Source: Beroe forskalii (lineage: Eukaryota > Ctenophora > Nuda > Beroida > Beroidae). Taken from it: a stretch of DNA of 64,000 nt. The notes below the pieces were generated by a model, which saw only the letters and a program-made list of their open reading frames with translations, did no database searches and was not told where the DNA came from. Location: positions 496,501 through 560,500 of the forward strand of contig WFMF01000042.1 of the NCBI GenBank assembly GCA_011033025.1, written 5' to 3'. A program made the position numbers and the translations under genes. Of this stretch, positions 3,561 through 33,500 are shown piece by piece (the stretch's first letter is position 1; each line of letters opens with the position of its first letter).

Positions 3561-3937
3561 GCTTAAGTAGTCTCTCAAGCCAGGCAATGTCTGACATAAC
3601 AAGGTGCAACAGTACCTCGTTAAATTGAAACTTTATTTAACCAGAGGTATATACTGTCACACCAAGGTCCTGCTCCTTGTTAAGGCAAGCAAACACACCG
3701 AGCAAACAGAGATATTGTCATAGCATGCGGAAGCATCAATTATGCGTGCTCCTCCTTCCATCCATATGCCACGCAAAGCTAAGGAGTTTAAGAATAATAC
3801 AGGCATAATCCTGCTTGAAGATATTTTTTGAAGTTATCATTACCTAATAATGAATGCTCTTGTTAATATGGCGGGAGACTGACCTGATGGTGTCAATATG
3901 GACATTGTTGTGCCTCATATTCAAATAGCCCCCTTTC

Positions 3938-4875
3938 TTACCGTATATATTTTATCCAATGTGCTGTAAAAAATATAATTGAATTGAATTGAACATGCAA
4001 GGCAATGGACAATTTCATTCTTGGTTCCACAGCAACAGAACTTGTATACCTCAGTTGTATCTCAAGCAGAGGGAATCCCTGAACTCTTGCTTGTTTAGAG
4101 TATACCCAAGGTGTTTGAGAGGCAATGATGTTAGCCATGCTGAGACCCCCTTCTCTTTCTCAGCTGTAATAGAGCAATAAGCTAGTGGTGAAAAATTCTG
4201 ACTAAGGTTTTCAAACTCTCTGGTAATCTGGTATGCCTGGTTGCTTATTCATTTCTAAGGCTGTCCTTGATTGCTTTGATCTTATTTTGGTCTAGGGTTT
4301 CAAGTGAAATGGTCTGGTTCAGGATCAGGTTTTTAAGTTGCTCAGTGACTTTAACTGATGCTTCATACTCTAGTTAAGCAGTTTCTGTAGGATCCTGGAT
4401 TCCAAGACCACCATGTTTGACAGGAAGAGCAAGGATCATCCGTTCATTTGCATTTGGTGTGACTCTACCCCCAACAGCAGAAGGGATGAATTCATTTGCA
4501 ATGACTTCCTCCAATGGCTTGAAGAGGTGTCCTATGCCTGCTACAGTTCTCTGTACATAGATTCACCATCTACCAATTTATTTTCATCATATTATTTGAT
4601 ATATTATAATTATTTCCTTATTAATGGGTGGCCTTGCTAACAGTCTTGATGATTGACTAAGTGCTGTCCCTCAGCACAATCGAGACCTTCCTCTATATAA
4701 ATTATTGAAAAATGTATATTTTAATAGTGCTGTAAAATGATATTCAAATTCAAATTCAAATTCAGTCCTTTTGTGAAAGCACTAAGGGCTGCTTGAGGTT
4801 CATCTTCTGCTATTTGAGACAACTGTCTAACATCTTCAATCCAGGATTTCACCTTATCTTCAACCTAAGTGTTTT
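3938..4875 (-). pseudogene. decayed retroelement pol C-terminal fragment
   Basis: Read on the minus strand from 4875, the sequence encodes KVKSWIEDVRQLSQIAEDEP followed by QAALSAFTKGL. This is the segment that follows the palm in a family of animal retroelement polymerases. The next part, 4560-4380, gives FIPSAVGGRV, then ERMILALP, then HGGLGIQDP, the typical FIPS/LALP/GGLGI block, followed by in-frame stops. The two blocks are separated (about 4565-4765) by an A/T-rich insert ending in repeated ATTCAA, which looks like the 3' tail of a later insertion. Weaker coding traces continue to 3938. I cannot name the clade from this piece alone. Confidence 0.6.
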
Positions 4876-4877
4876 GA

Positions 4878-6960
4878 ATGAATTTAAAATTTTCTAATGT
4901 TGTGTTAGATTGTAAATTGCATAATAATTTAGGTTTTATATTGGGACCTGTCATGTCATCATCAGAATTCCTAACTCTACTGGAGTTTCTATTAAATCAC
5001 AACATTGGAGATGAGAGTATCCTTTACAACCCTCTTTGTTCTGAAATCATCATGTGCCCAAGAGAAAACCCAGTCCATCAGTCTCTTCCTGGTGATATTT
5101 GCCTCATATCAGAATTGTGGAAATTGTTCATGAACACTCCATTTTATAAGGATTCATTAGTTAAGCTTCCACCCAGGATACTTGAGTTGATGAGTGGATA
5201 TAAAATGTACTTTAGGAGTTCAAAGAACCTTATCCAAATAACTGAACCTGACCATCAAGAAACTACTTTCATAAGGACCAAATCTATGGCAATAAATTTT
5301 GGAAGTCTCTTATTGCATCAGAGTGAAGACAATCAATGTGGCAATATTGGGATGAAGTATTTTAAATTATTGCGTTTGAAAGATACTGCTGATCAAGAAA
5401 GACAACTGATAGGAATGCTTGATATATGTGGTGAATCAAGCTTCTCTGGACAAGAAACTGAAACACTTATAGTATTATTCAATCAGCTTACTAAAAATTT
5501 AAGAAAGTTGAATGAATCTGCTTTGCTCCCTGCAGAATACCATCAGCATGTTGATATTGAACTCTCATCTGTAATTTCAAAGTGCAAAGTGGACTATAAG
5601 ATTGTATGTAAGTTCATTTCACGATTGATTATTGCCATTATTCCCAAAAACATTTTTGATGGCTGTAAACTAAGAAGGATATTCATTAGAGAGCTCTTGA
5701 AGCTGATAAGGAATTCACCTCATTTCAACCCAAATTTCATAAGTGAATTGCCTTTTTCCGAAGTAAATAAGAATTCTTGCTCATTTATCCCTACATTTCT
5801 AGATAATAAGCTCCTAGTTGTCACAAATATTTTGTACCTCATAGTAACAGATATCATTTTTCCAATCATGAAGAAACATTTCTATATGTGTAAAGATAAA
5901 GGTGCTTTATCTTTTTATAACAAGCCAATGTGGATGCAACTTCAAACAATGGCTTTTAATGACCGTTCTGCTGAGTTTGAGAATGTTGAGGTAGAAGAGA
6001 TGCAAGTTCTGAAATCATTTAACAACATTTTTGGTATATACACCATACGATTTCAACCAAAACATTCAGGTAGAATACGATTGATTTCACTTACAAACAA
6101 ACTTGAATGTGATGTAAAATTCTATGCTGATATGCCAATTAATGCCATGCTTGTGCCAGTATTGGCCACTATCAAGACCTTATACGAGGGGAGGACCTAT
6201 TCCTGCAAACCCTATCAAATCAAAGGCAAATTCGACCTGAAAAATGCTTTAGATGATTACAAAAGAAAAATAATGGCCATTGGCGATTGCCAAATTCAAC
6301 CATATGTTTGGTTTTTCCAAGCAGATGCTATCAATTGTTATGATAACATTAACACTGCTGTTTTAAAGAATGAAGTCTTGAATTGGTTGAATTGGGCACC
6401 TTTCTATCACATTCTGAAAATCAAAGTACATTCACATAGCACTGGCTCAATCAAAACTGAAAATATAGCTATACCATCCAAGACAAGAACTCCTCTTGAA
6501 TTCGAGCTCATTGCAAATAAGATAGGTACATCATTTAAATACTCCACTGTCACTCTGAAAAAGTATTATATATTTGAGTCAGAATATATAAAGGCAACCA
6601 TTAGAAGATTTATATGTCAGTCTTACGTCTATCATGGAGGCAAATTTTACAAAAGGAGAAATGGCATTCCACAGGGTGCAAACATATCAAAGCACTTATG
6701 TGACTTCTACTTCGCTTATATGTTTCGGAATTTGAATCTTAGCAGCAACAGCCTGTTTCTATCAGCTACAGATGACTTTCTTTACTGTCATTGCAGAAGG
6801 GAGAAGTTGATGAATTTAAGAGGAACTGTTACTCTGGAAATTTTGATTTTCTATTGAACGAAGAAAAGAGTGTGAGTTGTGAGGGAGGAAAGAAGAATAT
6901 CGTGTATTACGGGGTGAATATCAATATGCTAGATTTGACGACAAATCTCCATAATCAATG
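4878..6960 (+). pseudogene. TERT: telomerase reverse transcriptase-like ORF, intronless, frameshifted
   Basis: Open for 659 codons from the ATG at 4878, then continued in another frame to a TGA at 6958. Telomerase signatures in order: a possible N-terminal domain (residues 1-125); an RNA-binding-domain-like block (about 239-330); motif T FYNKPMWMQLQ (about 345); motif 2 GRIRLISL (about 398); motif A FFQADAINCYDNI with catalytic Asp483; motif B' GIPQGANIS (about 596); motif C TDDF with Asp632-Asp633. One T is missing in the run after motif C (about 6780-6785). The +1 frame then supplies motif D (FDFLLNEEKS) and motif E (VYYGVNINMLDL). The C-terminal extension is not seen. TERT genes are usually intron-rich, so 2 kb without an intron is odd and may point to a retrocopy. 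The T motif and linker argue against a Penelope RT. Family assignment is fairly sure; whether the copy functions is doubtful. Confidence 0.75.
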
Positions 6961-9900
6961 AATCTTGACATACCAGGGTTCTAACTACAGATTGAGGAAC
7001 AGGGGAATATGGAAGGATGGAGAGGCCATGGACAAGTAAGTTTAACTTATCGTGATTCTTGGATGCAATATTTCAGATCAAATACAACCTAAGACAAGAA
7101 TTTAAAGATTATCAAGTTAATCTAACCACTTAATAATGAAATTATGTGGACCAAAATTCATTGAAAGCGTTATCCGAGAAAAACTGTGGCATAATTGTGA
7201 ATTTATGTCAGATGTGAAGCTGAATTTATCATGTCTTATCGCATCTTCATCTCATAATTCAATAATTTCCAGATTACAAGAGAATGATGGAACATGGAAG
7301 TACAAATGCATCAACATGGAAGAACGGAAGTGAGTGGCAAATATGGTTTTCAGGTAGAAAATAGAAATAATGTCAGAAATTTGTGTAGATTTCTGTTGTG
7401 ATCAATCATCAAATATCCAGATGAGGATCAAAAGTTTAAATGATTTTTTGTTTGAATCAATAAATTCCTACGTTTTGAATCTATGCGGGTATCTCAAACC
7501 AGGTACAAAATAAGTAAGATGTTCTTTGGAATGAACGCCAATAAATAGGGCGAATACCATGTTGACTCAATCCGCATTTCCAAGAGTCAAGACAGCTTTA
7601 ACAGGTAAAATTCTCACAAACCACTGCTTCCTTATTTGATCAAATTGGATAGAAAATAATTGGGCTCTTTTTTCATTTTCATACTAAGAAACCATGAGAC
7701 CATGTAACTTTATATTTCCCGTGCTCACAATTTGGATCATAGATATAATGCGTTGTTTGTTATTGTTTGAATGTGACAATAGTATAATCATGGCATTTCT
7801 TCCAGATGACTGAGTAAAAGGCTCCCCTCTGATTGGAGAAGGATTATTGGAAACAGTCTGAGTGACTACCACTCACCTGCGTTCTGATGCTGAGGGTGGT
7901 ACAGAAACCTGTACAGATGAGAACAAAGCTGAAGCTGCCGATCTAATGTGAGTTATATAAGTCTTTTTTAGCCCCTTTCTTCGGTTCTAAATATGTGCCC
8001 GAAAACTGCTCAACAACATAAAATCAGTTGGTCAAACTGCATGTTGTGGATGCGCTGAATTAAGTAATTCTCAAATGAAAGGAGTTTTCTTTTCAACAGG
8101 TGGACAGTGACTCAGTAACTATGTGCACTCACGGTTGTGGATATGACTTCACGCTCATTGCAATTGCTGAACAAGCTGGAACAACAGTTACAGCCAATAC
8201 GAAAGGTTTTTGTACTTTCTTTTCGGTGGCACATTGCTACCTGTAGTCCCCATTCTAGAACCTGTAGTAATGTTAGTACAACCTGATTTTTGAAGGATGT
8301 CATGTTAGTATTGTTTCAGTGTCGTCACACAATCATAATTATGACTATACTATCACAACATTCATACATGTTTCTACTCCTCTCTAAAATGGGAACGTAC
8401 TGCAATAACCAGCCACCACCGACTACCAAGCGCTATTCAAGTTCTTAAGTATTTTTACTAGGCACATTTCTTCAAGGAGTAACCTTGCATATCAATGGGA
8501 ATTGGGGATAATATGCAAGCATTTTGATTGAATTATGAAATAGGTCAGAGCATAGCGTGGAGAGGAACAGGACACCCGCTCTCTCTACATAGTGCCAATT
8601 CGATTATCTACCTCCCCACTTCACTGTTGGACTAACATGAAAATGACTAACATGCTTTTGCAACGCAACATACAATAATACAGTGGGTTGCCTAGATCTG
8701 GGCAACCTGACATACAAATATGAACGGGGTTGCCTGTTTCTGAAACTTGAGCTCCCTAGCAGAGGAGGAGCAATATGCAATAGCATTTGTAAACAGTGAT
8801 GAACAGTGTCCACTAGCGACTGGTCAATGTATACAATCGGAACTGTTGATTAATTTCACAATTTTATTTCTGTGGATGTTTGTTGTCAACCGTCAAGCAG
8901 GTCACATGTTAGTAATTTTGTCCTTTTATTATCCTAGATGTTAGTACAATATGTTGCATAAGTTGCCTGGGTTTTTGAATGGGGCTTGGAATTAGATTCC
9001 GATGAGCTATTCCTAGATTTTTCAGTTCACTATAATGCTTGTGTAATTCCAGTTTTTTTTATCTAAGTGTCTTGAAAAAACACCAGTTCATATCAACTTA
9101 TCAATTTATAATACAGCCAATACGAAAGTGACATATGCTGTGAGTGATGAAACTGTGACTGTTGAGCGAAAGGACGCCATCACTGAGGAGTGAGGAATTT
9201 AAAGGTAACATTATCTTCAGAATGTTGCACAAGACTTTTTCATTAAAATTACGTTCGAGCGTTGTCATTGTTATTGATAAATTCTTGAAGATCTTGAACT
9301 TCCCACTCAGGAACGTTTCACTTGACAATAGACGGGTGACACACCAGAACATGACGTGCACCGTGTCAATACCAACATTCTGGAGACATTGAGCAACAAC
9401 GGGAATACACCAAGGCCAATACACAGGGATCTTCCTACTGTTAGTAGAAATATTCCACCGATGATATTAACTGATTATTTCAGTATTTCACTGATATTTT
9501 AATTCATCAATAAATCATGCCTCACTTCATAATCTGCTCTTTTGGCTACCTTGCTGATTTTCTCGTTACTCATAAGCACAGACATATTCTGTGCTGGTTT
9601 ATATTAAGAATTTAAGGCAAGTCCCTTACCAATGGTAGTAAGTCACAAGATTGTTTAGGATACACCCCTTGGCAAAATGGCAATATTCCATAAGATATTT
9701 GAACTCCATTTCATAAATTGGCTGTATTCCAACTACTATCCACAGACAGACAGTGGCATTTGGAACGAACAAAGGCTGGATACTTTGGAGAATCCTGCAT
9801 TGACAGTACTAATGTTGTGGGCAAGGGAACGCTGCAGGCAGCACTTGACAGCAGAGCACTTGACAGTGGCTGAGTGGCTTAGTATATACTGTATAGCCGA

Positions 9901-10760
9901 CGTTACATGTAACACCTAATGGATTATAATTTTATGTACTGATGTTACATCCCTGCTGGGCTGGCAGATAAGATGGAAAAGATCAATGTTAAAACTTTAA
10001 ACAATACTAGTAGTTTAATAATTGAGGAGTACCTTTCAATACAATATTAATCTGAGTACATCGACTGTAATTTGTTTGACTTCAAATATGATTCAATAGT
10101 CCAATGTTCTCTAGATCACTTGAATTGGTACCTTGTGAGCTTGTGCTCTTGTGAATGAATGTACTGAATTTTGGCACGTTGAGTACATTTCCAATACTAA
10201 TAATAGTATTACTATGTAAAATCAATGTGGAATATTGCGCAATTTGTATCTACTTTACTATAATTTGAGAAATTGGATTTGGATATGAGGACACAATCAT
10301 GAGTTATTTGGAGATTTTAGTCTTTGGTGCTTAATTTTGGCACATTTATGTACTATGAGCATTGTCTAGACTAACAATGCCAACAGGTGACTATTTGGAA
10401 GATAAATGTGATAATTTAAATCCTTTTTGAATTCATAATTTCAAATCATAATGAAAGTTCTTAGTTGTCATTTGCTGTGACTGATTATTATTATATTGCT
10501 GTTCTTGGGCACTTCCCTTCAAAAGATGGACTAGAATTGAGGATTTTTTCTTGAGTGCTTCAATTGAGCAAAACATCGCTCTATTCATAGGTGTGCCCCA
10601 CTGCTGCATAGTTTGGGATCATATTATCTTATGTAGAGATGATTGTAACAGCCATTTCAAATGTTTGAGTCTTGAGACATCATTGCTGAAAGTCGGACCT
10701 CTATCTATTCTACAGAACGGTACTATTAGCAAGTTCAATCTTTTATCCATAAAAAGAAGT
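6961..10760. other. gene-poor stretch; possible exon pair at 8100-9193
   Basis: No recognised gene. One weak candidate on +: 8100-8205 is preceded by a pyrimidine tract and AG and followed by GT, and reads VDSDSVTMCTHGCGYDF and onward in an open frame. A second block from 9113 joins in phase and reads NTKVTYAVSDETVTVERKD to a stop near 9193. The segment ACAGCCAATACGAAAG occurs both at the end of the first block and at the start of the second, so a duplication is as likely as a gene. Short ORFs elsewhere (7136, 7684, 9677) resemble nothing I know. Confidence 0.3.
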
Positions 10761-10774
10761 ATAAGTTTTGGTCA

Positions 10775-10850
10775 TCACTCAGAGCCGTTTCTGTGACATC
10801 ACTCAGAGCCGTTTCTCATGGGAGTTCCTAAGCCAGCATATGTGTGCGTA
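10775..10850. repeat. fragment of CG-rich repeat (CACTCAGAGCCGTTT)
   Basis: Two direct copies of CACTCAGAGCCGTTTCT, followed by a version of CCTAAGCCxGCATAxGTGTG. These are pieces of the dispersed repeats seen intact at 12128, 37280-37450 and 61430-61480. The stretch 10851-11850 shows no gene. Confidence 0.6.
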
Positions 10851-11844
10851 TTTACTCCATGTTATAAAGCCTTATTTCCACTAGGCTCTATTGTGTGGTG
10901 CCTAATGGAGGCTTGTGGAGGCTGAATGGAGCATTGTGGTTGGTTATTTTTCATGAGTTCTTCATCCTCTTTTTATACATAGGGCCTATACAACCTGTCT
11001 TAAGTCTTTGCCACAACGTTGAGACTGAGCCTGAATTGATATCCATCGACTCTAGTCAGACAGTCCGTGGGAATACTGAGGAGAGAGCCCGTCTCGACAT
11101 CTCTGCTCAAGGGTTATGGGGACCCTTCCAGAGGACAATGTTCGATGTCAGAATCTTCCATCCAAATGCTTAGGTACACTTACAAGAATCATGATGTAAA
11201 CTCAGTTTACATTCAGCCTGAGCAGAGGGGGGCGGTCGCCTAGTACTGTGATATGGCGCAGCTAGTCTCAGCAGATGATCAGGGGTCCACGGGCTCCACA
11301 GTTCCGATCTCTGGTAGGTAGACTGGGTATGGGAGTTGGCTCCCCGTACCCAGTGGGGTCCCTCTGCGGCGGGACTGCTGCCGATCACCGATGTCCCATG
11401 GCAGCCGGAATGCCGAATATCTAGCCTAGTCCATAGCGGACATAGCACCAAGTGTGCAACATACCAGAATACCTAGCCATAGCGGCTGCAGTCCCAAGCG
11501 GACAACTTTCTCAACCCCTTGCCATAACGGCAAAACGGATTGAACCCCATCTGACCAAACCTCGCGTCCTTCTAAAAAACGCAAAATTCACTAAAGACAA
11601 ACAACATTTTAGTAGACAAAGCCCCCTAATCAATGCGCGTTGAACGCGCGCGCGGCTTATAATGTCTTTGTTCTCCAAAAATGTAAAACTTGTCCACATC
11701 AGGTGACGTCACGTTGCACGTCCCATGCAGATAAGCAGTCACATTTAATCTACCGTCACGGCGTTTGTTTCTCAGCCTGCTGCCCAATAATCGAAAGCCA
11801 TACCATGCTCTTACTTTCTTTGCCTCTTTGACGTAGGAACTGAT

Positions 11845-11936
11845 ATTCCCCTAACCAGGGGTGTCGCGAAACGACAAGGCGCGGCGCGCGCGCGCGCGTA
11901 AAACTAGGGATCTGGTTAGAGCAAGAACTGATAATT
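11845..11936. mobile_element. CG-rich palindromic MITE, CTAACCAGG...CTGGTTAG type
   Basis: An insert that starts near CCCCTAACCAGG and ends with GATCTGGTTAGAGCAAG is bracketed by GAACTGATA on both sides, a 9-bp target duplication. The centre is CG alternation. A sister copy lies at 12440-12510, and a fragment at 58640-58710. Confidence 0.6.
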
Positions 11937-12019
11937 GAACTGAATCGAAGTACAAATGACTCTATGAAAATATGAATCAGAATGAACTGAAACAGGGCCG
12001 GGAACAGAAAATCGAGTAG

Positions 12020-12098
12020 TTGTCTGGCATTGACAGACCCTCTCGAGAATCAGCCCCGCGCTTCGCTGGTGTCAGCGGGTCATACATCGTACGACAAA
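12020..12098. mobile_element. micro-MITE, TTTGTCGTACG...CAGACAA family (decayed copy)
   Basis: On the minus strand it begins TTTGTCGTACGATGTATGAC and ends CCAGACAA, matching the 37736 and 37895 copies. The flanks CTACTAAA and CTACTCGA agree at 6 of 8 positions, so the target duplication has drifted. Confidence 0.6.
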
Positions 12099-12127
12099 TT
12101 TAGTAGGTGTCCCATATAACTCCGGCT

Positions 12128-12195
12128 TTCCTAAGCCCGCATAGGTGTGTGTACGCGCGCGCCGCGCAACGCAGACAGGGATATACGTGTTTAGC
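12128..12195. mobile_element. CG-rich MITE, CCTAAGCCCGCATAGGTG family
   Basis: A 68-bp insert, TTCCTAAGCCCGCATAGG through CGCGCGC to GGGATATACGTG, is flanked by perfect 10-bp direct repeats AACTCCGGCT (12118-12127 and 12196-12205). Other copies with their own target duplications are at 37569-37718 and 59040-59128. Confidence 0.75.
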
Positions 12196-12290
12196 AACTC
12201 CGGCTGAGCGACGTCACAGACTTAAAGGTCAATCCTCTGTTATATCCCAAATCTAAACACGGCCCTAACCAAAACCCTACAGATTTCACC

Positions 12291-12363
12291 TTTGCCAGGC
12301 GTTGCCTGGCCCCTTCGCGCGCGCGCCCCGACTCGCAGAGTCGGGGCAGGCAACGTCTGGCAA
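12291..12363. mobile_element. micro-MITE with 7-bp target duplication
   Basis: A 73-bp palindromic insert, TTTGCCAGGCGTTGCCTGG to CAACGTCTGGCAA, flanked by perfect TTTCACC repeats (12284-12290 and 12364-12370). Related to the 37383, 37736 and 37895 copies. Confidence 0.75.
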
Positions 12364-12439
12364 TTTCACCTTCCAATGATCATATTACAGGGTCAGGACA
12401 TTATGATCTCCCCATCCTGCCATGATGTCGTCATGATGA

Positions 12440-12512
12440 CCTAACCAGGGCCGGGGTGTCGCGAAGCAAGGCGCGGCGCGCGCGCGTAAAACTAGGGATC
12501 TGGTTAGAGCAA
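12440..12512. mobile_element. CG-rich palindromic MITE, second CTAACCAGG copy
   Basis: CCTAACCAGGGCC through a CG-alternating centre to GGGATCTGGTTAGAGCAAG, inserted in GTCGTCATGATGA, which is present on both sides. Same family as 11845-11936. From 12513 to 13262 I see no gene; a CG-rich low-copy segment with gTAAGG/ACTAGT stretches may be old repeat. Confidence 0.6.
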
Positions 12513-13262
12513 GTCGTCATGATGACCGTCATGATGTCATTGTGGCGTCCCCATGGGGACATATCATTCTGTTCTCACCGATTTCCACAGCAGGCATCAC
12601 AAAAACTCTGGGGTAGATAGCACCCCACCTATCAAGAGATAATTACCGAGGATTATCAGCTGACCTCAAGTACCATTCCAGCTCACAGTATCCTGCCACT
12701 GGGCGAGGGCGCACATGCATTTTCTAATCTAAAGCACACCACACGAAGCAGAAAGTAGATGCCCCTGCCTTTTATAAAATCAACTCTTCTGCAATAAAAA
12801 TGAATACGAACACACAAACCTTCCACAACATACAAATACAACACTAAATAATACCACTAAAACCAGCACACTCGCCATCAGAGCCATAGAAGTCGATGGT
12901 TGTAGGGTAAGGCCCATGTGCCACTTACCACAGGGAACAAGGTAGTCAATCTTCGGAGGGGTGCCCCGACTCAATTGGCATCTGTAAAGATGCTATCATC
13001 TGGCATCCCAGGTAAGGGGTACTAGTCAAACTAGTAGTGCATGCCAGACGGGTTCCAGTGGAGCTCTCTGTCCTGGAGAGCTGCCACCTCCCACGCGTGG
13101 TGGGGGAGGTGGTCAGTGAACATTGCAAAAAAAAATTCAGCCTGAGAACATCAAGAAGAGGGACTATGAACAACATGTCATCCAGGTCAAGAAGTGTAGC
13201 TTTACACCTCTCGTATACAGTACATCAAGCGGGATGGTTCCACAGGCGCAGGCATTCCATAA

Positions 13263-13423
13263 GGGATCGTTCACATATTACGTAATCAATTTTTGGCCGA
13301 TTTCAACCCCCTCCCCCTCGTAATCAAGTTTACAGTAGTTGTATTTGTTGCAATAACATGTAATGTAATCATTCGGAAACCCCCTCCCTCCTCTAGGTGA
13401 TTACGTAATATGTGAACAATCCC
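13263..13423. mobile_element. 161-bp MITE with TAA target duplication
   Basis: Terminal inverted repeats of about 26 bp (GGGATCGTTCACATATTACG at the left; the right end mirrors it with one mismatch) are flanked on both sides by TAA. GG-starting TIRs and a 3-bp T(A/T)A duplication fit the PIF/Harbinger superfamily. A second copy is at 37839-38111. Confidence 0.75.
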
Positions 13424-13984
13424 TAAACGGATTGCAGAACTCATTGCTGAGAAGACCAATTTGAGGAATACCCCAATGTTATAAGCATGATGAGAACAAC
13501 ATTTTCCTTTGCACTAATAAAAAGTGTGCTCGTGTCAGTGAGAGGATCCCGGGGGAAATCATCTCACAAGCGTGAAAATCCGATTTCAGAGGTTTCATTC
13601 AATCTTGTCCCAGATGGATTGACAGGGGATTTAACTTTTTCTCAATTTCCTTTTCCATTCACCTGCCTGATTATTTTTTTTCATTTTTTGAATTTAAAGG
13701 GATAGACTGTTTCTGTATTATTTAAGTGCTTATTTTGTCTTAAAAGTTCATCAGGAAAATCACCAATACACATGCACATCTTATTAATTAAGGTGGCTAA
13801 GTACAGTTAGATCACTTGAAGCACAACAGAAGTACAACAACAACAACAGCAACAACAATAAAAACATCAATATCAACCACAACACTACAAAGCCCACGAC
13901 AACACCAACAACAGCAGCGACATTAACAACAAATTATATCACCACCAAACAACTAGTTCTCTTCTCTGTTCCAGGAAGTAACCT
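13424..13984. other. no gene; CAA-rich simple sequence at 13835-13940
   Basis: A 72-codon ORF at 13487 has no recognisable similarity. The right half is a degenerate (CAA)n/(CAACA)n tract. Confidence 0.5.
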
Positions 13985-14340
13985 GAACTGGGCCCAGTTA
14001 AATCCCAATTGATGGGAATATATTATTTACACAGTCTGGCTGGGTCAAACCTCCGCGTGACTCATGAGGTGGTATACAGCCACCTTTGGCAGATCTCTGA
14101 CTTAACCTGCAGGCAAGCATCGTCTTGCTTTGCAGTCTGATTGTGCCATTGGTGTTGGCAGATTGCTGGTCAGGGGTCCTGTACTGGTGGGCTGCTCTCA
14201 GCCCAGGATATCCCCAGCAGTCCTAAAGCCACCTAGGAGTTCACACCCTTAGCCTAGCTTAACTAGGGATAGTCTCCATGCTCAGCATGGCTGCCACCGC
14301 CTGGTTGATTAAACTGACCCTGGCCATTTGACTAAGACTA
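13985..14340 (-). repeat. dispersed repeat of about 350 bp, copy 1
   Basis: This segment matches 59262-59640 in the opposite orientation along its length: ACACAGTCTGG..TGGGTCA, GGCAAGCA, AGCCCAGGATATC, GGGATAGTCTCCATGCTCAG, GGCTGCCACCGCCTGG. No terminal repeats or coding frame are evident. It lies where the next Integrator subunit 2 exons would be expected. Confidence 0.65.
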
Positions 14341-14604
14341 AGAACCAGACAGGTACCTGTCCAATACCTTTTCTACTTTTAAAAAGTTTTATTTTGATCA
14401 AATTCATGCAGCAGCAGCTGATATATCGTTATCAAAAGTAGATAAGAGAGCTACCTAAATCGATACAAAATATAAAGGAAAATCTTAAAAACTCAGTTTG
14501 CCAATCTATCTTCATACGATCAAATTGCCTAAATATGCTATTAAGGTAGCACCTGTTTGAATAAAACTATTTCCTCTAATCCACCTGAAAGTAATTAATA
14601 TCAC

Positions 14605-17600
14605 CTGCAGACACGGTGATCTTGAGTCCGGTGGTTTGTGATAAGATAGGACCTATCATCTCATATGTTCCGCTGTACAGGTGCATGCCGGTCAGAAGTA
14701 GAAGTTCCGCCTTTCTGCCCCCTTCGTACGAGTAATTCAACACATCAGTCAGCCACTTCCTCATTATAGTCCCAATCTGGGGGAGGGAAGGTAACTTGAC
14801 AGTGATGGAAATCTTCGTAGAATGAAACGGCAAGTTCAGGTGACTTGCGACCAGGACACGACTGCTATACTGCGTCTCTGTACTTTAGTAGATTTAGAAT
14901 TTAAGACTTTAAGTCACGGTGGAATTGAACTTCGAATAATCATGAATTATGATGGGCGAGAGAAGAGATTGATTACCTCAATGGAAGAGTTGAGTGAGCT
15001 GCAAGACATGAAGAGAGACAGAGACAGTTTGACGAACAAGTCTCCCTCAGGTCCCTCACAAGGCTTCTGTACCATCAAATTAATAAGTTCCCTGCACTCG
15101 CGTGGGAACAAGGATAACCTGGAATCGTAGAGAAGTGTTGTCAAAGAATCACTAGGACAACAAGACATTTTCATGACAACACCATGACAACACCATGACA
15201 ACACCATGACAACACCATGACAACAAGACATTGCCTTGACAACAACACACCTGCAAGTATTGACCATGTTCAGGTACAGCACCATGAGTTGGTTAGCCCT
15301 CACCACCTGAGACAGCCCCATGACTTGACAACACAATGACAACACCATGACAACACCATGACAACAATACATCACCTTGACAACAACACACCTGCAAGTA
15401 TTGACCATGTTGAGGTACAGCACCATGAGTTGGTTAGCCCTCACCACCTGAGAGAGCCCCATGACTTGACTACACCATGACAACACCATGACAACACTAT
15501 GACAACAAGACATCACCTTGACAACAACAGACCTGCAAGTATTGACCATGTTCAGGTACAGCACCATGAGTTGGTTAGCCCTCACCACCTGAGAGAGCCC
15601 CATGACTTGACTGCTGTCCCTCATGCTCTCCGCAGTCTCTGTTGTTTTGAGGAGGTCCTCCTTGATAGTATCGTCTAGGAAGGAGCAGTAGAAGGCGTCA
15701 CGTGACTTGTCCTCCATTGGAGTGTCCTCTTCCTCCTCCTTCATGCTCACATCCCCTCCTCCTCCTCCTCCTTTGCAGGTTACACTCTGTACCACTCCTA
15801 GCAATTTCTCTCTGATGTCAGAGAATCGCACCATCTTCTCAAACGACTTGCTCTGAGGGAAGAGTGGTTTTAGGGAAAACCTGTCATTATCATACTATCA
15901 TAGGAAAGATGATTTGAGGGAAACGAACCCCTGTACTGATATTAAACTTTCTCGTATCATTTACAATGTTTTCAACTTTCACACTAAACGTTACCTCGTT
16001 TTTGATGAAGTCAATGACGGGAGCAGTGTTCTCCTCAGAGAACATTGAGAGGATGAGTTGTTCAGGTGACTCTGTCAGAGAGTCCGGTAACAGAACGGAC
16101 TGTAACACCACCCTCTTCCTGGTGTTGGATACCAGGTCCAGAGACACGTGTTGTGTGGGGTCTGATACCAGACCTGACACCTCCTTCAGACAGGATAGCA
16201 ATTTCTGAGAGGGGTATACGTGTACGGTAAAAACCAGAGAATGTCATTAATCATAAACTGATTAAGATCTTAAGATAAAATTTGAAATTTTTATTTTCTC
16301 CAAATTACCCTAGGTTCCAAATTCAAAATCGTGTTTCAGATCGGTTCAGGTTAAGATTCACGGTCTCTTGGGACAGTCTGATATCCTGCATAGAGGGACT
16401 GCCAGTTCCTCTTGTAGGTCAGCTCCCCTCAAGAAATAGTAGTGACCCTATGAAAAAAGCTTCTACCTGCTCAATAAGGGTGTCTTTAGTCTCCACAAAC
16501 AAGTCCACGAAACATTGCAAGATCTCAGGGAATCTGACAGGGTTGTTCATCACTAGTCGGTGTATGTAGTACATGGTGTCAGTTGACAGTCTGATCAGAA
16601 CCACCAGGAGTCTCTTCACATCAAACACACCTGGCATTCTGTAGCACCTGTGGGTGGGAGTTGTTGTTAGAGGGAAAACACTGACCAATCAGAGCCTGAG
16701 TTGGCTATCAACTCGTGATGTGATTGGTTAGTGTTTCCTTACTCAGCCTGTGATTGGTCCTCGTTGATACTATGTGGTGGTGAAGGAAGTAATTATCATG
16801 TTACTCATGGGAATTGAAATCAGACAGTACTGTTTCAATCCTTTATATAACTCACAGTACACAAAGAACAGCAGTGATGAGATCCTTGTAGTCCGAGTAA
16901 GAGAAGAGCTCACTGCTAACACCACTCCCACAACTCCCACTATTACTCCCACTATTCCCACTACTCCCTCCACACTGTGACTCCAGGTAGATAACCTCCG
17001 CAGCAATGACTCTGACCATGCTGTCAATGTGTCCCCCTGCAAATACCATGTCCACTGAACTGTCATCACGTGACAAACAGGAGTCTTCACGGCGAGTTCC
17101 GCACTTCTTACGCAGATCCTGCTCCTTCACCGCGTCCTCCACTACCTGAGAAATAGAAAGTACATAGACACGTGTCTGGTAAGTAAATTTTGCGATACTT
17201 CCCATGGTGCAGCCAGAGGGATGAATCCGGCTTTATAGATCTGCAATCCCGAGGGCAAATAGGACGCTCATGAGTCCTTGGATTATATAGACACCGATGA
17301 ACACGACATAGGGTTCTATAAGTATATAAACATATTAATTTCCTAATTCCCTCTTCTACTATCAAAGCATTAGAAAGGCTCCCCACCACTAACCTCGTTG
17401 AAGTTATGTCTGAAGAGTCTCTGTAGGGTTGGAGCAAGGGAGCTCTTGTGAAGGATGGTAATGATGGTTACCTTGTGCTGCCCTCTAACCACTTGTAGCA
17501 GCTGTGATAGGTAGGGGAGATACGGAGCTAGGCTGATGTGGTCCTGGCGGAGTGACATCAGAGTTAGGGACATTCACTTCATGCTTTTATTAAATCCAAA

Positions 17601-17832
17601 TTACTCTGAAATACATCCCACCACGGCAGATACAAATTCATGGGGTGTGGGAGTGGAAGCAAGACACTCGATGCATTTGGAATTGCTAAATTGGCCTGAT
17701 TGGTTGCGAGACTGAAAACTAAGTTACCTAAAACATGTCCATTGCCCAAGTATTTACCTGATCGCAGAGTGCAGCTTGTAGGTCACCTCTTGTTAGGTGC
17801 TCGAAGACACTCACTTCCATGCTTCTAGTCAT
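14605..17832 (-). CDS. INTS2: Integrator complex subunit 2, N-terminal half (8 exons)
   Basis: Exons, in transcript order: 17832-17758, 17543-17394, 17145-16856, 16647-16467, 16204-15995, 15852-15533, 15118-14977, 14776-14605. All have GT/AG borders and the phases join, giving 513 residues. INTS2 is a helical-repeat scaffold subunit of the nuclear Integrator complex, which cleaves snRNA and other nascent RNAs. Diagnostic stretches: NEVVEDAVKEQDLRKK (exons 2-3), SSELFSYSDYKDLITAVLC (exon 3), YYIHRLVMNNPVRFPEIL (exon 4), NQLMVLYLNMVNTC (exon 6), KAELLLLTGMHLYSGTY and GLKITVSA (exon 8). Each lines up in order with vertebrate INTS2 (about 1200 residues). The start is the first ATG after an in-frame stop; a second Met lies four codons later. 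The C-terminal half is not found to the left: either a very long intron or truncation. The end of exon 6 is tandemly triplicated. Confidence 0.85.
15180..15610. repeat. 141-bp tandem triplication including an exon end and splice donor
   Basis: Three copies, 141 bp apart (splice junctions at 15533, 15392 and 15251), each contain the end of INTS2 exon 6 (VVRANQLMVLYLNMVNTC) and its CAG/GT donor, plus intronic CAACACCATGA units. The outermost copy is continuous with the upstream exon; the other two lie in the intron but keep intact donors. Confidence 0.85.
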
Positions 17833-18065
17833 GTGGAATCCAGATCTTAGTCACGTGGTCTACATTATTCCTTCTTTTTCCTAGGAAACCATTGCTAGGA
17901 AGGAAGGGATTATATAGGCTATGATAATAACAGGATAACGGGGTTTCTTACTGATTTCATCGTTGTAAACATTGCAATCATTTACTGATTGTTTTGAAGT
18001 TTTAAAGACACTTCATATGTTATTAACATTCATAATTCCCTAGATTGTATCCTAAAAGAGATCTA

Positions 18066-18225
18066 GTATGAGACAGTTTATTCCCGGCAGGGGGTAGCCA
18101 GGGGAAGGCAACACAGGCAGCTGCCTCCCCTGTTCGGAAAGAGATTGTGAAAATTTTGAGGTGATTAAAGCTTAGAGCCAAACAAAATAAGACATTTAAA
18201 AACAAACAATCATCAATGCACTTTA
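18066..18225 (-). repeat. dispersed repeat (GTAGCC..GGCAGCTG..TTCGG), copy 1
   Basis: GGGGGTAGCCAGGGGAAGGC, then ACACAGGCAGCTG, TTCGGAAAGAGAT and AGAGCCAAACAAAATAAGACA. The same order occurs at 22640-22790, in the same orientation. The pair brackets the two TERT-like pseudogenes. It looks SINE- or MITE-derived but I cannot assign it. Confidence 0.6.
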
Positions 18226-18399
18226 AATGCAATAGGTATGAATGGACAATTCATCCAGACATGATGTATAGAATAGAAAATTTAGAAGAAAATTATAAAA
18301 TTAAAATGATAATAAAATTGAAATAAGATGAATCAAGGTAAGGTACATGGGTGAAGTCCTTCTGAAGTAACAAAACGACAATTACATCTCAAGAAAAAG

Positions 18400-19950
18400 T
18401 TCGTAGCTTGATCTTCCTGTCAATAAATTATTATAAAAGATCTCAACCAGAATTCCATCAGATAAATAAATAAATATTCATAGGTATCAAGATTTATTGA
18501 TTAAGAAAATTTGTCGTCAAATCTAGCATATATTGATATCTACACCATAATACATGATATTATTCTTTCCTCCCTCATAACTAACACTCTTTTCTTCATT
18601 CAATAGAAAATAACAATTTCCAGAGTAACAGTTCCTTTTAAATTCATCAACTTCTTCGTTCAAAAGAAATAATAATTTTCAGAGTAACAGTTCCTTTTAA
18701 ATTCATCAACTTCTCCCTTCTGCAATGACAGTAAAAGGAAGTCATCTGTAGCTGATAGAAACAGGCTGTTGCTGCTAAGATTCAAATTCCGAAACATATA
18801 AGCGAAGTAGAAGTCACATAAGTGCTTTGATATGTTTGCACCCTGTGGAATACCATTTTTCCTTTTGAAAAATTAACCTCCATGATAGATGTAAGACTGA
18901 CATATAAATCTTCATATAGTTGCCTTTCATATATTCTGAATCAAAAGAAGAATCTTTTTCAGAGTGACAGTGGAGTAGTTAAATGATGAACTTATCTTAT
19001 TAACAATGATCTTGAGTTCAGCAGGAGTTCTTGTGTTGGATGGTGTAGCTATATTTTCTTGATTGAGCCAGTGCTATGTGAATGTACTTTGATTTTCAGA
19101 ATGTGATAGAAAGGTGCCCAATTCAACAAATTCAAGTCTTCATTCTTTAAAACAGCAGTGTTAATGTTATCATAACAATTGATAGCATCTGCTTTGAAAA
19201 ACCAAACATTTGGTTGCATTTTGCTATCGTTGATAGCCATCATTTTTCTTTTGTAATCATCCAAAGCATTTTTCAGGTCAAATTTGCCTTGATTTGATAG
19301 GGTTTGCATGAATAGGCCATCCCCTCAGCAGAACGGCCATCAAAAGCTATCGTTTGAAGTTGCATCCACATTGGCTTGTTATGAAAAGATAACCCACCTT
19401 TATCTTTACACATATAGAAATGTTTCTTCATGATTGGAAAAATGATATCTGTTACTATGAGGTACAAAATATTTGTGACAACTAGGAGCTTATTATTTAG
19501 CAATGTAGGGATAAATGAGCAAGAATTCTTATTGACTCTCAAAAAGGCAATTCACTTATGAAATTTGGGTTGAAATGAGGTGAATTCCTTATCAGCTTCA
19601 AGAGCTCTCTAATGAATATCCTTCTTAGTTTACAGCCATCAAAAATGTTTTTGGGAATAATGGCAATAATCATTTGTGAAATGAACTTACATACAATCTT
19701 ATAGTCCACTTTGCACTTTGAAATTACAGATGAGAGTTCAATATCAACATGCTGATGGTATTCTGCAGGGAGCAAAGCAGATTCATCTTCAGTTTTGATT
19801 GAGTCAGTGCTATGGGTCAACGTACTTTTTACAATGTGATAGAAAGGTGCCCAAGTCAACCAATTCAAGATTTCATTCTTTAAAACAGTCGTGTTAATGT
19901 TATCATAACAACTGAAAGCATCTGCTTGGAAAAGCCAAAGATTTGGTTTT
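18400..19950 (-). pseudogene. TERT: TERT-like pseudogene copy A (chimeric)
   Basis: Minus-strand remains of the telomerase-like gene at 4878. In 5'-3' order: a piece from just after motif A (NWLTWAPFYHIV...DSIKTE) is fused directly to the RNA-binding-domain region (ESALLPAEYHQH), followed by motif T (FHNKPMWMQLQ). About 55 residues carrying motifs 1/2 are then deleted (join at RSAE/GMAYSCKP). Motif A (FFKADAINCYDNI), motif C and motifs D/E follow. Several frameshifts are present. In motif C the TTTT run missing one base in the + copy is complete here. A 60-bp segment around motif D (KGEVDEFKRNCYS) is itself duplicated (about 18635-18720). Homology to copy B continues about 100 bp past motif E to about 18400. 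Confidence 0.8.
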
Positions 19951-20215
19951 TACTATCGTTTATAATAAAATTTTTTTTTCTTTTGTAAAGCCATTTTAGG
20001 GCTTAAATAACGAAATAATTTTGGGAAATTAACCCCCAGAAAACATTAAAACGAAAATTGGAAAAAAAATAATTTGGAATCGTTTATGTTTTAAAAAAAG
20101 GCCTTTTTTTTGGTTTTAGGGTGCCTTGATCATTTTGGAAATTGACCAAAAGCGTCATTATAAGGCTGAGTGTATTTTTAAATGCTTTTGAAACATTCAT
20201 GAGTAGGCAAGAATT
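19950..20215. other. homopolymer-inflated, low-complexity patch
   Basis: Where the TERT-like homology should continue, the sequence becomes long runs (nine T, eight A, eight T, repeated GGG/CCC) with only traces of the expected order. It abuts the G-rich minisatellite. This looks like poor consensus rather than biology. Confidence 0.5.
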
Positions 20216-20218
20216 ATG

Positions 20219-20540
20219 ATCAGGAAGTGGTCAGTAGGGGGTCAGTAGGGGGTCAGTGGGGGTCACCAGGGGTTCACCAGGGGTCAGTAGGGGTCAGCAG
20301 GGGGGTCAAAAGGGGTCAGCAGGGGTCAGTAGGGGGGTCAGTAGGGGTTCACCAGGGGGTCTCAGGGGGGGGGGGTCAAAAGGGGTCAGCAGGGGGTCAG
20401 TGGGGTCAGTAGGGGTTCACCAGGGGTCACCAGGGGTCAGTAGGGGGTTCACCAGGGGTCAGTAGGGGGTCAGTAGGGGGTCAGCAGGGGGTCAGTAGGG
20501 GGTCAGTAGGGGGTCAGCAGGGGGTCAGCAGGGGGTCATT
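20219..20540 (+). repeat. G-rich minisatellite (GGGGGTCAGTA)
   Basis: About 30 tandem copies of a 10-11 bp unit, GGGGTCAGTA or GGGGTCACCA/GGGGTCAGCA. Four-G runs every 10 bp on the + strand give strong G-quadruplex potential. It lies between the two TERT-like pseudogenes. Confidence 0.9.
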
Positions 20541-20577
20541 GGTATACTTTCATACGACCATGTATTATGTATCAAGG

Positions 20578-22446
20578 TAAGTCCTTCTGAAGTAAAAAAC
20601 GAAAATAACATCTCAAAATATTGATAAAAAGTTCGCAGCTTGATCTTTCTGTCAATAAATTAGATAATATCTTCACCAGAATTTCATCAGATAAATAAAT
20701 ATAAATAAATATTCATAAATATCACGATTTATTGATTTTAAGGAAATTGTCGTCAAATCTAGCGTATATTGATATCTACTCGATCATACTATCACATATT
20801 CAGATATTATTCTTCATTCAATAGAAAATAATAATTTTCAGAGTAACAGTTCTTTTTAAATTCATCAACTTCTCCCTTCTGCAATGACAGCAAGAGAAAG
20901 TCATCTGTAGCTGATAGAAACAGGCTGTTGATACTAAGATTCAAATTCAGAAACATATAAGCGAAGTAGAAGTCACATAAGTGCTTTGATATGTTTGCAC
21001 CAGGCTGTGGAATGCCATTTTACTTTTGAAAAATTAACCGACAGACCGTGATGGATGTAAGAATGACAAATAAATCTTCTAATGGTTGCTTTTATATATT
21101 CTGAATCAAAAGAAGAATCTTTTTCAGAGTGACAGTGGAGTAGTTAAATGATGTACTTATCTTATTAGCAATGAGCTCGAATTCAGCAGGAGTTCTTGTG
21201 TTGGATGGTGTAGCTATATTTCCAGTTTTGATTGAGCCAGTGCTATGTGAATGTACTTTGATTTTCAGAATGTGATAGAAAGGTGCCCAATTCAACCAAT
21301 TCAAGAATTCATTCTTTAAAACAGCAGTGTTAATGTTATCATAACAATTGATAGCATATGCTTGGAAAACCCAAAGATTTGGTTGCATTTTTCTATCGCT
21401 AATAGCCATACTTTTTCTTTTGTAATTATCCAAAGCATTTTTCAGGTCACATTTGCCTTGATTTGATAGGGTTTGCATGAATAGGCCATCCCCTCAGCAG
21501 AACGGTCATTAAAAGTCATTGTTTGAAGTTGCATCCACATTAGCTTGTTATAAAAAGATAAACCACCTTTATCTTTACACATATAGAAATGTTTCTTCAT
21601 GATTGGAAAAACAATATCTGTCACTATGAGGTACACAATATTTGTGACAACTAGGAGCTTATTATCTAGAAATGTAGGGATAAATGAGCAAGAATTCTTA
21701 TTTACCTCGCAAAAAGGCAATTCACTTATGAAATTTGGGTTGAAATGAGGTGAATTCCTTATCAGCTTCAAGAGCTCTCTAATGAATATCCTTTTTAGTT
21801 TACAGCCATCAAAAATATTTTTGGGAATAATGGCAATAATCAATTGTGATATGAACTTGAAGACAATCTTATAGTCCACTTTGAAATTTGAAATGTCAAT
21901 ATTAAGATGATGATGGTATTCTACAGGGAGCAAAGCAGATTCATTTTCAGTTCTGATTGAGCCAGTGCTATGGGTCAACGTACTTTTTACAATGTGATAG
22001 AAAGGTGCCCAATTCAACCAATTCAAGAATTCATTCTTTAAAACAGCAGTGTTAATGTTATCATAACAATTGATAGCATATGCTTGGAAAACCCAAAGAT
22101 TTGGTTGCATTTTTCTATCGCTAATAGCCATACTTTTTCTTTTGTAAGCATTTTTCAGGTCAAATTTGCCTTTGATTTGATACGGTTTGCATAAATAGGC
22201 CCTCCCCTCGTATAAGGTTCTGATAATGGTCAATACTGGCCCAAGCATTGCATTAATTGGCATATCAGCAAAGGATTTCAGAACTAGAATCCCTTCTAAC
22301 TCAACTTTCTCAAACTCAGCAGAACGGCCATTAAAAGCCATTGTTTGAAGTTGCATCCACATTGGCTTGTTATAAAAAGACAAACCACCTTTATCTTTAC
22401 ACAAAAGGAAATGTTTTTTCACAATTGGAAAAACGATATCTGTCAC
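20578..22446 (-). pseudogene. TERT: TERT-like pseudogene copy B (internally duplicated)
   Basis: Two successive telomerase-like modules on the minus strand. The first (22446 to about 21975) runs from motif T (FYNKPMWMQLQ) through motif A (VFQAYAINCYDNI, with the catalytic Asp replaced by Tyr) to STGSIRTEN. It joins straight into ESALLPVEYHHHL of a second module, which has the RNA-binding region, motif T, the same motif 1/2 deletion as copy A, motif A (again Asp to Tyr), linker, B' remnant, motif C (SATDDFLLLSL) and motif D. The TEN/ESALLP junction equals that in copy A, so both descend from one tandemly duplicated ancestor. An open stretch of 344 codons (22476-21442) spans the junction. Not able to polymerise as read, since the motif A aspartate is lost. 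Confidence 0.8.
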
Positions 22447-22586
22447 AAAGATACATGATTTGATACAGAAGTACAAAGTTGTTATGGCTGATGCCAGTGA
22501 GAGACAGGAACGTGGATGTTATCTTGTTCACTCTTCCCTGGACAGTGCTACTATTGACCAGCTATACAGCCACCAGAGACCCACAT
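22447..22586 (+). other. exon-like coding fragment of unknown origin at TERT copy B edge
   Basis: The TERT-like homology stops at about 22446. The next bases on + form an open frame, KIHDLIQKYKVVMADASERQ and then ERGCYLVHSSLDSATIDQLY, ending in TAG near 22586. Composition looks like genuine protein, but I do not recognise the family and see no splice signals that decide its limits. Confidence 0.3.
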
Positions 22587-22639
22587 AGTCTGTTGTCATC
22601 CCTCAGTTAGTTAATTATTATTAATTTTTCAGTGAGATT

Positions 22640-22790
22640 ACAAGGGCGTAGCCAAGGGAAAGGGGACACAGGCAGCTGTACCCCCTTTTCGGACAGAGAT
22701 GGTGAAGTTTTGTGGCGAAAAAAGCTTGGAGCCAAACAAAATAAGACATTCAAAACGTTTTCAATGTAACTCGCCGATCCCTTTGCAAAA
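22640..22790 (-). repeat. dispersed repeat (GTAGCC..GGCAGCTG), copy 2
   Basis: Same order of blocks as 18066-18225 (GTAGCCAAGGGAAAG, ACACAGGCAGCTG, TTCGGACAGAGATGG, GGAGCCAAACAAAATAAGACA). Confidence 0.6.
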
Positions 22791-22829: not shown

Positions 22830-23182
22830 ACATAAAGCCAAAGGCCTAAAAAGAATCACAGTTATTCCGTCTACTCGTATTGATACATTATTAAGATCCT
22901 GTACGTGCCTACATCACAAGACCTGTCCCTGTTAGTTGAGCTTCAGCAAACCTTTGATAACTTTGAACGATCTATTGATCTGCGTTTAAATAAGTGCAGC
23001 TAGAGGTCAGAGGAAACTGTGACTTTGTTAGTTTATTATGATAAGACTGTAAATTCCTGATCCCCACGGCCCAGTGCCCACACGGAGGATCGCATTGACA
23101 TTGTTAATTGGTATTTTATTGATCGCATTGACATTGTTAAAAAAAAAATAAATAAATAAATAAATAAATAAATAAAACCCTG

Positions 23183-23220
<38 letters not shown>

Positions 23221-24309: not shown

Positions 24310-26724
24310 CTACCTCACAAGTCCATGAAAGTATATGGGACCGAGCAAGTCACGTTTCAAGATGTACGACCACCAAGAAGGCTGAAATTTCAAAAATATA
24401 TTTAGAATTCAGAGCACTATTTTCTGCATTATCATGTATACGTATAAATTTACTGGGTACTTACTACTTAGGTATGAATGATAAGTTCTGCACCAAAAAG
24501 CTGTCTAGCTCTGAAAATATGATCGAAAGACCAAGTTTTTGGACATGAATCTGCATTTGGATCTTAAACATTGGATCTAAACTTCAAACCTTAGCCTGGT
24601 TAACCAAAGGGAAAGTCTCCATTATCTCCAAATCATATCCGAACTCCGCCAGGATAAGCCTATTATCCCCGACTGTAAGCGGACAGGAAGTGTAACCATT
24701 GTAGGAGGACTCAAGAGACCCTCCCTTCATCACTGTCTTCAAGTTCTTGTAGAGGACACCAGCCTCAGCAGCCACTTTAGCAGCCGTCTTCCCCGTGGGG
24801 CAGTTGTTACAGTCCCCAATAGCGAATATGTTAGGGTAGTGAGTGTGCTGAAGAGTGTGTTTATTAACATCCACCCAGCCTGCTGTGTCTGCCAGAGGTG
24901 CGTACACAGGGAGGGGGCCACAAGGGGGCGCTACGTGTAGCATGGAGAACTGAAATAGTGTTGCGGGTTAGCAAATTCTCGACATATTCAGATGTGACTA
25001 TTAGTACCGATTCTAGTATTCTAGTACTAGTACGATATTGTTATGATCATAATGGTGAAAAGTCTGACTGAATGATCAGCTCTCATTCACATAGGTAATT
25101 TAGGGGTTAACTACAATGTCCCCTACTATTATTTCCAACTACAATGTCCACTGAAGAAAAAAGTAATTTGAAGAAATAACAACTCACTGATCGGGTGGTG
25201 AGTTCTCCAGTCTCCAAGTCCTCGAATACAGCCTCCCTCGCCTCTCCTCTCACCTCCACCAGGTTACTCCGAGTTCTGATGTCACATCCCTTAGCTGCTG
25301 CCACTTGTCTGAGGGAAGCTGCGTACTTAGGCACCCCGAATATGGCGGGGAGCGTGGTGTGGTAGGTCAGCGTGCACTCCTCTCTTACCCCTGCCTGGTA
25401 GGGGAGGTGGGATGAAAACCAGAGGTGGGATGAAAACCAGGTTAAATGGAGCTCTGATGATCATGCAGCAAGTTTAAAGTGTATTTGATAATCAAGTCAG
25501 ATCATGATATCATCACCCTCAATATAATGCAGAACTTCACGTGACCTGACCTTTCTCAGGTGAGTATCCGCCAGGTACATTATCTTCTGAGGAGCTCCAG
25601 GGCACTTTATGGGAGTGTTAGGGAAGGTGAAGATGAGGTTCCCTTCCCTCACAGATGACAGGGTCTCCCAAGTGTAGTCGGCATTACCTGGAATAATATC
25701 CGGGTTACTATTCAATGACTGTTTTATTCGATTATTTAGTTATTTTGGTCAAATCAGTTTATGGGTCACAGCCGGACACAGCACAGTTTTTATGTATGAG
25801 TTTCAGACTAAGAAAGTAAGAATACACGGCTATATCTGTTGATGGAGAATTATGCTGTATCTACCAAAAGTTTTCAGAGATTCGTTTAACTTGTTAAAGT
25901 GCATTTTAAAATCACATCCAAATTATCCTACCAGGTCCATAGTTGGAGCAAACACCATTTTTACCAAGTGTTTCAGTAAGGCCTTTGATTTTATCAAACC
26001 TCAATTCCATTCCCAGTGCAACAACCAAATAGTCGTATGTAATCTGAAATAAATCAAGGAAACTTTATAATCTGAGTTGTTTCCAGCTCCCATTTTAATT
26101 ACAAAATTAGGTTGTTACTTTGGAAAAGATTACAAAATTTCTTACAACCTTTATCATTTCAATAATTTTCTTACCTTTCGACCATTTGACATTACCAATG
26201 AGTTTTGGTCAGGCTCAAATTCCTTTACACCTTCATCAAACCAATGAGCATTGGCAGGAATACAATCAGTTTGAGGTCTACTTGTATCTTTCATTGCTTT
26301 GATTCCTGCACCAACCAAAGTCCAGAGTGGCTGGTAATAATGAGTCTGAAAAACAGGAAATTCATGATTATCAAAATACAGTACAGTACTGTTTATAAGC
26401 AGGTTTTTACAATTTGAATTGAGAGATCCATGAGAAACAAAGATAATTAATAGTGGCTAACGAGCTCAAATTTCAAAGAAAAAAAATCAAATTATGAAAT
26501 GTCAAAGTTCTCACATCTGCAGGGTCAATAACAGCAACATCACCATGTTTGACAAGCTTAGAGGCAACAGCACAACCACCTGCACCCCCACCAGCAACAG
26601 CAAACTTGTAGTGAGATGATAAAAACCTCACACCAATAGTATTTGAAGTTTTCAGCTTCAGTGCAGGGGACTTGGATATCACTTTCTGTATGATACCAGT
26701 ACCAGTTTTATAGTGCATTAACAT
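24310..26724 (-). CDS. SQOR: sulfide:quinone oxidoreductase, mitochondrial (7 exons)
   Basis: Exons: 26724-26515, 26345-26175, 26043-25932, 25687-25551, 25394-25188, 24949-24590, 24381-24310. All are GT/AG with matching phases and give 422 residues, about the length of the family. The enzyme is an inner-membrane FAD disulfide oxidoreductase that oxidises H2S and passes electrons to ubiquinone. Exon 1 carries a basic presequence and the FAD loop AVAGGGAGGCAVASKL. Exon 2 has YYQPLWTLVGAG; exon 4 has FTFPNTPIKCPGAPQKIMYL with one redox cysteine. Exon 6 has MLHVAPP, the second FAD site FAIGDCNN, and YNGYTSCPL with the other redox cysteine. The short last exon encodes the C-terminal membrane-associated helices (WWSYILKRDLLGPIYF). 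Start: Met at 26724 (or 26718); an upstream in-frame Met exists but the transit peptide fits the shorter form. Intact throughout. Confidence 0.93.
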
Positions 26725-28202: not shown

Positions 28203-28394
28203 CCTAGTCTATAACAAGAATTTGATAGCAGATTTAACATCATATATATCAACAATTAAAGAATATTTCCTTTAAAACACATCGATCTGCATCATCATAA
28301 TGATTAATATAAGAATGGTGTGAATCATAGTAGGGAATTCCAGATATTTTGAATAATAGTTTCATCATATCACAAAATAAACTTGTGAAATAAA

Positions 28395-33337: not shown

Positions 33338-33500
33338 AGAGTGTAGAAGCAGAAAGAAGAGTGTGGGTCAAGAAAAGCTGACAGATGCAGAAAAGGGGAT
33401 GGGTGAGACAGAGAGGGGGTGCAGCAAAGAGAGGATCAACCAGAGAGGAGAGAGTAGGGAGAAGCTGAGGAAAGACAGAGGTGGAGTTGACAGAAAAAGA

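Follow-up and report, generated by a model that had tools for sequence, protein, structure and literature searches.

A full-length TERT and scattered, scrambled TERT pieces in the genome of the ctenophore Beroe forskalii

The window, a 64-kb stretch of one Beroe forskalii contig (C492:496501-560500; assembly of 216,145,372 bases in 1134 contigs), contains one full-length TERT on the forward strand (the + copy) and two composite pseudogenes on the minus strand, not the three comparable copies that an earlier note on this DNA had described. Animals are thought to keep a single tidy TERT copy. We consider it probable that the + copy is the animal's own TERT, short, encoded in one exon and without a CTE, that it has undergone repeated DNA-level duplication, and that the duplicates have decayed while one copy was kept by selection. 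The TERT-related features of the window, with coordinates and strand, are:

3830..4865, minus: decayed coding remnant that we take to be transposon-like, with approximate limits and with stops and frame changes in its translation
4953..6780, plus: TERT coding sequence in the main frame (N-terminal part, RNA-binding domain, motifs T, 1, 2, A, B' and C)
6771..6795, plus: stretch with one base fewer in the + copy than in each of the four other copies spanning it
6797..6961, plus: TERT motifs D and E and the stop codon (6959-6961), in a shifted frame
18089..18201: second member of the 113-bp repeat pair, matching 22643-22755
18354..19786, minus: beta2, a duplicate of beta, with a 59-bp internal duplication among its indels
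19787..19988, minus: alpha2, remnant of a duplicated alpha segment
20229..20538: 11-bp tandem array between the two minus composites
20579..21945, minus: beta1, partial TERT (+ 5511-5975 and 6186-6971 plus 3' flank) with a 213-bp loss of motifs 1/2
21946..22446, minus: alpha1, partial TERT (about + 5844-6020 and 6117-6464) with an in-frame 105-bp loss of motifs 1/2
22643..22755: 113-bp repeat, 83% like 18089-18201 and in the same orientation

In the ORF list of the 64-kb window, the frame of the + copy opens at 4878 and ends at 6857 (659 aa); Met 4953 is the position at which the starts of three relatives (P0001-P0003) align. By its sequence the + copy is a real TERT, as the earlier note had proposed. 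The ORF matches the Pfam Telomerase_RBD model (PF12009) with 25.1 bits, just above the cut-off of 25, and at E<=1 the model matches all four family members (the + ORF plus P0001-P0003). The alignment of the ORF with human TERT spans the T motif to motif C, and the motifs that we take to be T, 1, 2, A, B' and C are collinear with those of human, Tetrahymena and yeast TERT in our alignments. The catalytic aspartates of motifs A and C (D483, D632, D633) are kept and are invariant with P0001-P0003. Searched alone against the PDB, the + ORF retrieves five distinct sequences at E<=1, all of them TERT. A profile built from the ORF and its three relatives could have placed it outside TERT; among PDB chains it finds only TERT (7 of 7 at E<=10; best E 3.4e-14). 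With P0001 alone as the query, human TERT is found with no better than E 0.0075; hits to five proteasome chains (E 0.5-0.7) were set aside as chance-level. AlphaFold models built from the four sequences are poor (mean pLDDT 38.8 and 43.1), so the Foldseek results obtained with the two models, in which the top 21 and top 17 chains are all TERT, serve as supporting evidence only. Matches to Pox_F11 and SARS_3b, each in one family member, are chance-level, and RT models of the group II and antiviral types stay far under their cut-offs on the family. In a check for a TEN domain, the N-terminal ~200 residues (profile A3) retrieved no PDB chain at E<=10. The window also encodes an RT that we take to be Penelope-like (50643-51866); it has the RT domain in common with the + ORF but, unlike it, matches RVT_1 only and has no Telomerase_RBD match. 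On the strength of its family membership, we propose a telomerase role for the + gene: the RNA-binding domain of its product would hold a separate telomerase RNA, and the RT domain would copy the template onto chromosome ends. We presume that the gene is expressed and active.

In its 3' part the + copy, as assembled, lacks one base between motifs C and D relative to all four other copies that cover the site (beta1, beta2 and two copies on contig C527), so that motifs D and E are out of frame: they lie not within the ORF 4878-6857 but in another frame, at 6797-6949. The motif set that the earlier note had seen is therefore present in the ORF for T, 2, A, B' and C, while D and E have to be read separately. 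In P0001-P0003 motifs D and E share one frame, which they do not in the + copy as assembled. The one-base shift could stem either from a miscalled base, the sequence here being rich in T, or from a recent loss that inactivated the gene; we infer a sequence error or a very recent event. Were the shift real and fixed, in a genome without an intact TERT, the lineage would be losing telomerase and keeping its chromosome ends by another route, which we regard as unlikely.

The shifted frame stops 14 residues past the Gly-Val of motif E. The relatives, only three among ~5.8 billion proteins, with a profile search returning the same three, are 666-675 aa long and share 38-46% identity with the + ORF across the full alignment. 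They stop 5-12 residues past the same Gly-Val, at protein-record ends that, like the record starts, may not be the gene limits; all four sequences end within 5-14 residues of this point. Genome-wide, the CTE (thumb) model TERT_C (PF21399) has no match over its cut-off of 27 bits. The best, at 21.4 bits on contig C460, contains stops and adjoins an ORF that is presumably transporter-like, and was rejected. ORFs of >=30 aa lying 3' of the + copy, inspected by eye, include no convincing CTE exon. We considered a splice site at motif E, which is unsupported because the + copy and P0001 are still similar past the motif. The visible coding part of the + copy is thus a single exon that ends just past motif E without a CTE, and for this part the description of the gene as intronless holds; spliced exons could lie downstream.

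No other TERT was detectable in the assembly. Across the genome, PF12009 exceeds its cut-off only at two of the window copies; the four matches listed are these two, a sub-threshold third in the window and one on contig C436. The last (17.6 bits) was rejected, as no convincing T, B' or C motif is found over 29.7 kb, and in that stretch no match to the family profile is better than E 2.6. The relative P0002 matches only contigs already known (C492, C802, C1080 and C527). With a human TERT segment as the query and a limit of E<=10, the 216 Mb yield just two matches: the full-length + copy (E 2.1e-7) and beta2 (E 0.10), which is part of one minus composite. An intron-containing TERT elsewhere, which the earlier note had suggested looking for, was found with none of these three queries (PF12009, P0002 and the human segment), which small divergent exons could escape. 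Since no other TERT is seen and the human segment reaches only these two loci, the TERT gene of this animal is most likely the + copy. Outside the animal, no further member came from the search for viral relatives (none of 61 pattern matches confirmed; nothing in BFVD at E<=0.001) or from that of GTDB contigs (none of 62 pattern matches confirmed).

The minus-strand stretches were correctly located by the earlier note and resemble the + ORF far beyond chance (86-97% DNA identity; blastn), but they are not ordinary copies: motifs 1 and 2 are missing from all four of their segments. From 22446 to 20579, an alpha1 piece is joined head-to-tail to a beta1 piece (blastn, alignment), and the stretch 19988-18354 repeats this alpha-beta composite in truncated form; the two composites are 91% identical. 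The pair of 113-bp repeats (18089-18201, 22643-22755) brackets the array. The 165 codons compared in alpha1 contain neither a stop nor a frameshift. Beta1 shows 5 stop codons over 385 such codons and, against the + copy, 7 indels that shift the frame; for beta2 the figures are 3 stop codons over 394 and 8 indels. One indel of each set belongs to the + copy itself. The motif A aspartate is lost in alpha1 and beta1 (Tyr in alpha1). At two of the three composite junctions there are three shared bases. Both internal losses (105 and 213 bp) and the alpha-beta fusion are in frame, for which the chance is ~1 in 27, and across these three rearrangements the alpha1-beta1 fusion retains a 358-aa open frame (22518-21442, minus strand) whose RNA-binding domain region scores 28.2 bits. 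Some stretches of alpha1 and beta1 have changes in common that are absent from the other copies in the alignment, which is suggestive of gene conversion. The stretch upstream of alpha1 (22472-22603) recurs at 88% near the TERT copies on C527 (L017:6986-7118), outside the TERT part. An A-rich run of ~80 bases lies at 23139-23218, ~0.7 kb past the alpha1 start and not at the end of a TERT copy.

Comparison of the segments suggests that the + copy is the one kept among the window copies. From 4953 it runs 609 codons without a stop. Among columns invariant in the relatives, where the + copy and a minus segment differ, the + copy keeps the conserved residue in 25 cells and the minus segment in 1, with neither keeping it in 8. 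The 25 cells represent 15 distinct positions, and the cells are not independent since the minus segments share history. The alternative that every copy is a pseudogene, even the + copy, with a functional TERT missing from the assembly or lost and the + copy the youngest of the dead ones, has several points in its favor. The one-base shift is absent from all four other copies covering the site, and a transposon-like remnant lies directly upstream of the + copy, within 90 bp of its start. In addition, the + copy matches 171 of the 218 columns invariant in the other three sequences (78%), as compared with 86-91% for each relative, which could reflect relaxed constraint. Other measures also count against a kept + copy. 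The dN/dS values between the + copy and the minus segments are 0.51-0.64, not low; simulated neutral change of 2% leaves no stop in 23% of runs and of 5% in 3%; and the + branch is near zero (tied) in one of three local trees and not the shortest in the other two. Against this alternative are the open frame, the retained catalytic aspartates and the conserved cells, as well as the far greater damage in the beta segments, and we judge it rather unlikely; a kept + copy accounts better for the pattern in our assessment.

The multiplication of TERT, seen by the earlier note within the window, extends through the genome. A DNA search of the assembly with the + unit found at least 24 TERT-derived pieces on 7 contigs (C492, 9; C527, 5; C1080, 3; C863, 3; C802, 2; C605, 1; C484, 1), and a protein search at least 26 matches on 6 contigs; in these genome searches, counts for repeats and large families are lower bounds. 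Among the pieces found, only the + copy on C492 is full-length, with none outside the window. C1080 carries two copies extending from about + 4940 to + 5791 and C802 one from + 5042 to + 5791, and on C527 two copies join + 4868 to about 5242 with about 6154-6966. Because identity to the + copy in the compared regions ranges from 80% (C605) through 87-91% (C527) to 89-98% (the others), the copies are probably of differing ages. A break at + 5235/5236 in C1080 was considered as an intron and rejected, as the insert lacks GT-AG ends and carries a piece of another retroelement's RT. The possibility that the copies are assembly duplicates of one locus is ruled out for the window, given their 2-14% divergence and rearrangements. 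C1080 and C802, which share a several-kb block including a 301-aa ORF, may be two haplotypes or else a segmental duplication. The exon containing this ORF, which we take to be from PRP8, is 97% identical between C802 (L015:6870-7775) and C1080 (L013:1869-2774) and lies next to the TERT fragments.

These arrangements bear on how the pieces arose. The + gene would have been duplicated repeatedly at the DNA level, both locally and to other contigs, and the duplicates would then have been broken, rearranged by deletion and left to decay, with one copy kept by selection. We favor DNA-level duplication, presumed here as the mechanism, because three copies (those on C1080 and C802) end at the same internal point with shared flanks, and because no target-site duplication above chance, at the five units examined, and no poly(A) at 3' ends is found. 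The earlier note had raised two other origins, retrocopies and a TERT-derived mobile element, and neither fared well. That the copies are processed pseudogenes derived from TERT mRNA would fit the lack of a visible intron in the coding part of every copy. It would also fit the four 3' contexts (the + copy, the beta pair and the two C527 copies), which diverge within a few tens of bases past the stop; no other observation speaks as strongly for retroposition as this coincidence of positions close to the stop, and it is incompletely explained. Yet poly(A) is not seen at the 3' ends, the five units examined for target-site duplication have one shared 6-mer, as do 98 of 500 random pairs, and no intron-bearing parent was found in the assembly. 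The DNA downstream of + 5791 common to the three C1080/C802 copies is likewise unlike 5'-truncating retroposition, and we hold this origin to be very improbable. We give a similarly slight chance to a mobile element derived from TERT, or to TERT pieces hitchhiking on transposons. The spread over seven contigs is in its favor, as is a dispersed repeat adjoining the C1080/C802 pieces (dozens of matches listed among 1546 candidates, of which 40 were scored). However, the TERT part is of low copy number, the ends of the pieces are inconsistent, target duplications are again not above chance at the five units, and the C1080/C802 pieces sit within a larger shared block that holds an ordinary-looking gene exon. 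DNA-level duplication followed by decay is the reading that we retain.

Parts of this picture have precedents. In PMC5405514, the TERT of the comb jelly Mnemiopsis leidyi is described as intronless, without a GQ motif, not extending past motif D and apparently incomplete; the GQ motif is reported absent in many animals, and the CTE absent in ants and Caenorhabditis, so a CTE-less TERT is not new. The + copy resembles the comb jelly gene of that account in being intronless and short and the ant gene in lacking a CTE; it differs from both in that four sequences here end just past motif E and in the many decayed pieces that accompany it. According to PMC7916837, TERT paralogues and pseudogenes occur in polyploid and some diploid plants, extra copies decay after duplication, and in one variant from Vigna a single exon is present as two neighbouring copies in inverted orientation. 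The decay of extra copies is common to both cases, whereas here the host is an animal, the pieces are more numerous and they form scrambled composites. The portions of PMC3546421 and PMC9841428 that we consulted contain nothing on extra animal TERT loci. Among the open-access papers listed, no title or opening of an abstract concerns an animal genome with scattered TERT fragments, which is weak evidence of absence as subscription papers fall mostly outside this set. TERT pieces on seven contigs beside one apparently kept, thumbless copy would constitute a natural record of selection on copy number, and the short-TERT family lends itself to asking which functions require the thumb. A real frameshift would mark a recent loss of telomerase, datable by comparison with the pseudogenes of the same genome.

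Several other elements of the window were observed. Positions 1-1460 are a large (ACTCGACTCGACG)n-type array in which both strands have long open frames; a segment of the array recurs at 80% on C1080 (L013:5383-5546). A near-identical pair of LINEs, presumably CR1-like, lies in opposite orientation ~7.6 kb apart (28592-35284, minus strand, and 42854-49175, plus strand), in blocks that are 98-100% complementary. The Penelope-like RT ORF is bracketed by a 206-bp inverted repeat (50432-50637 and 52104-52309; 100% complementary). Around the TERT cluster, the minus strand encodes an INTS2-like exon at 16852-17232 (24.9 bits, just below the cut-off), an SQOR-like exon at 24584-24967 and a single-ORF SLX1-like gene at 27456-28208.
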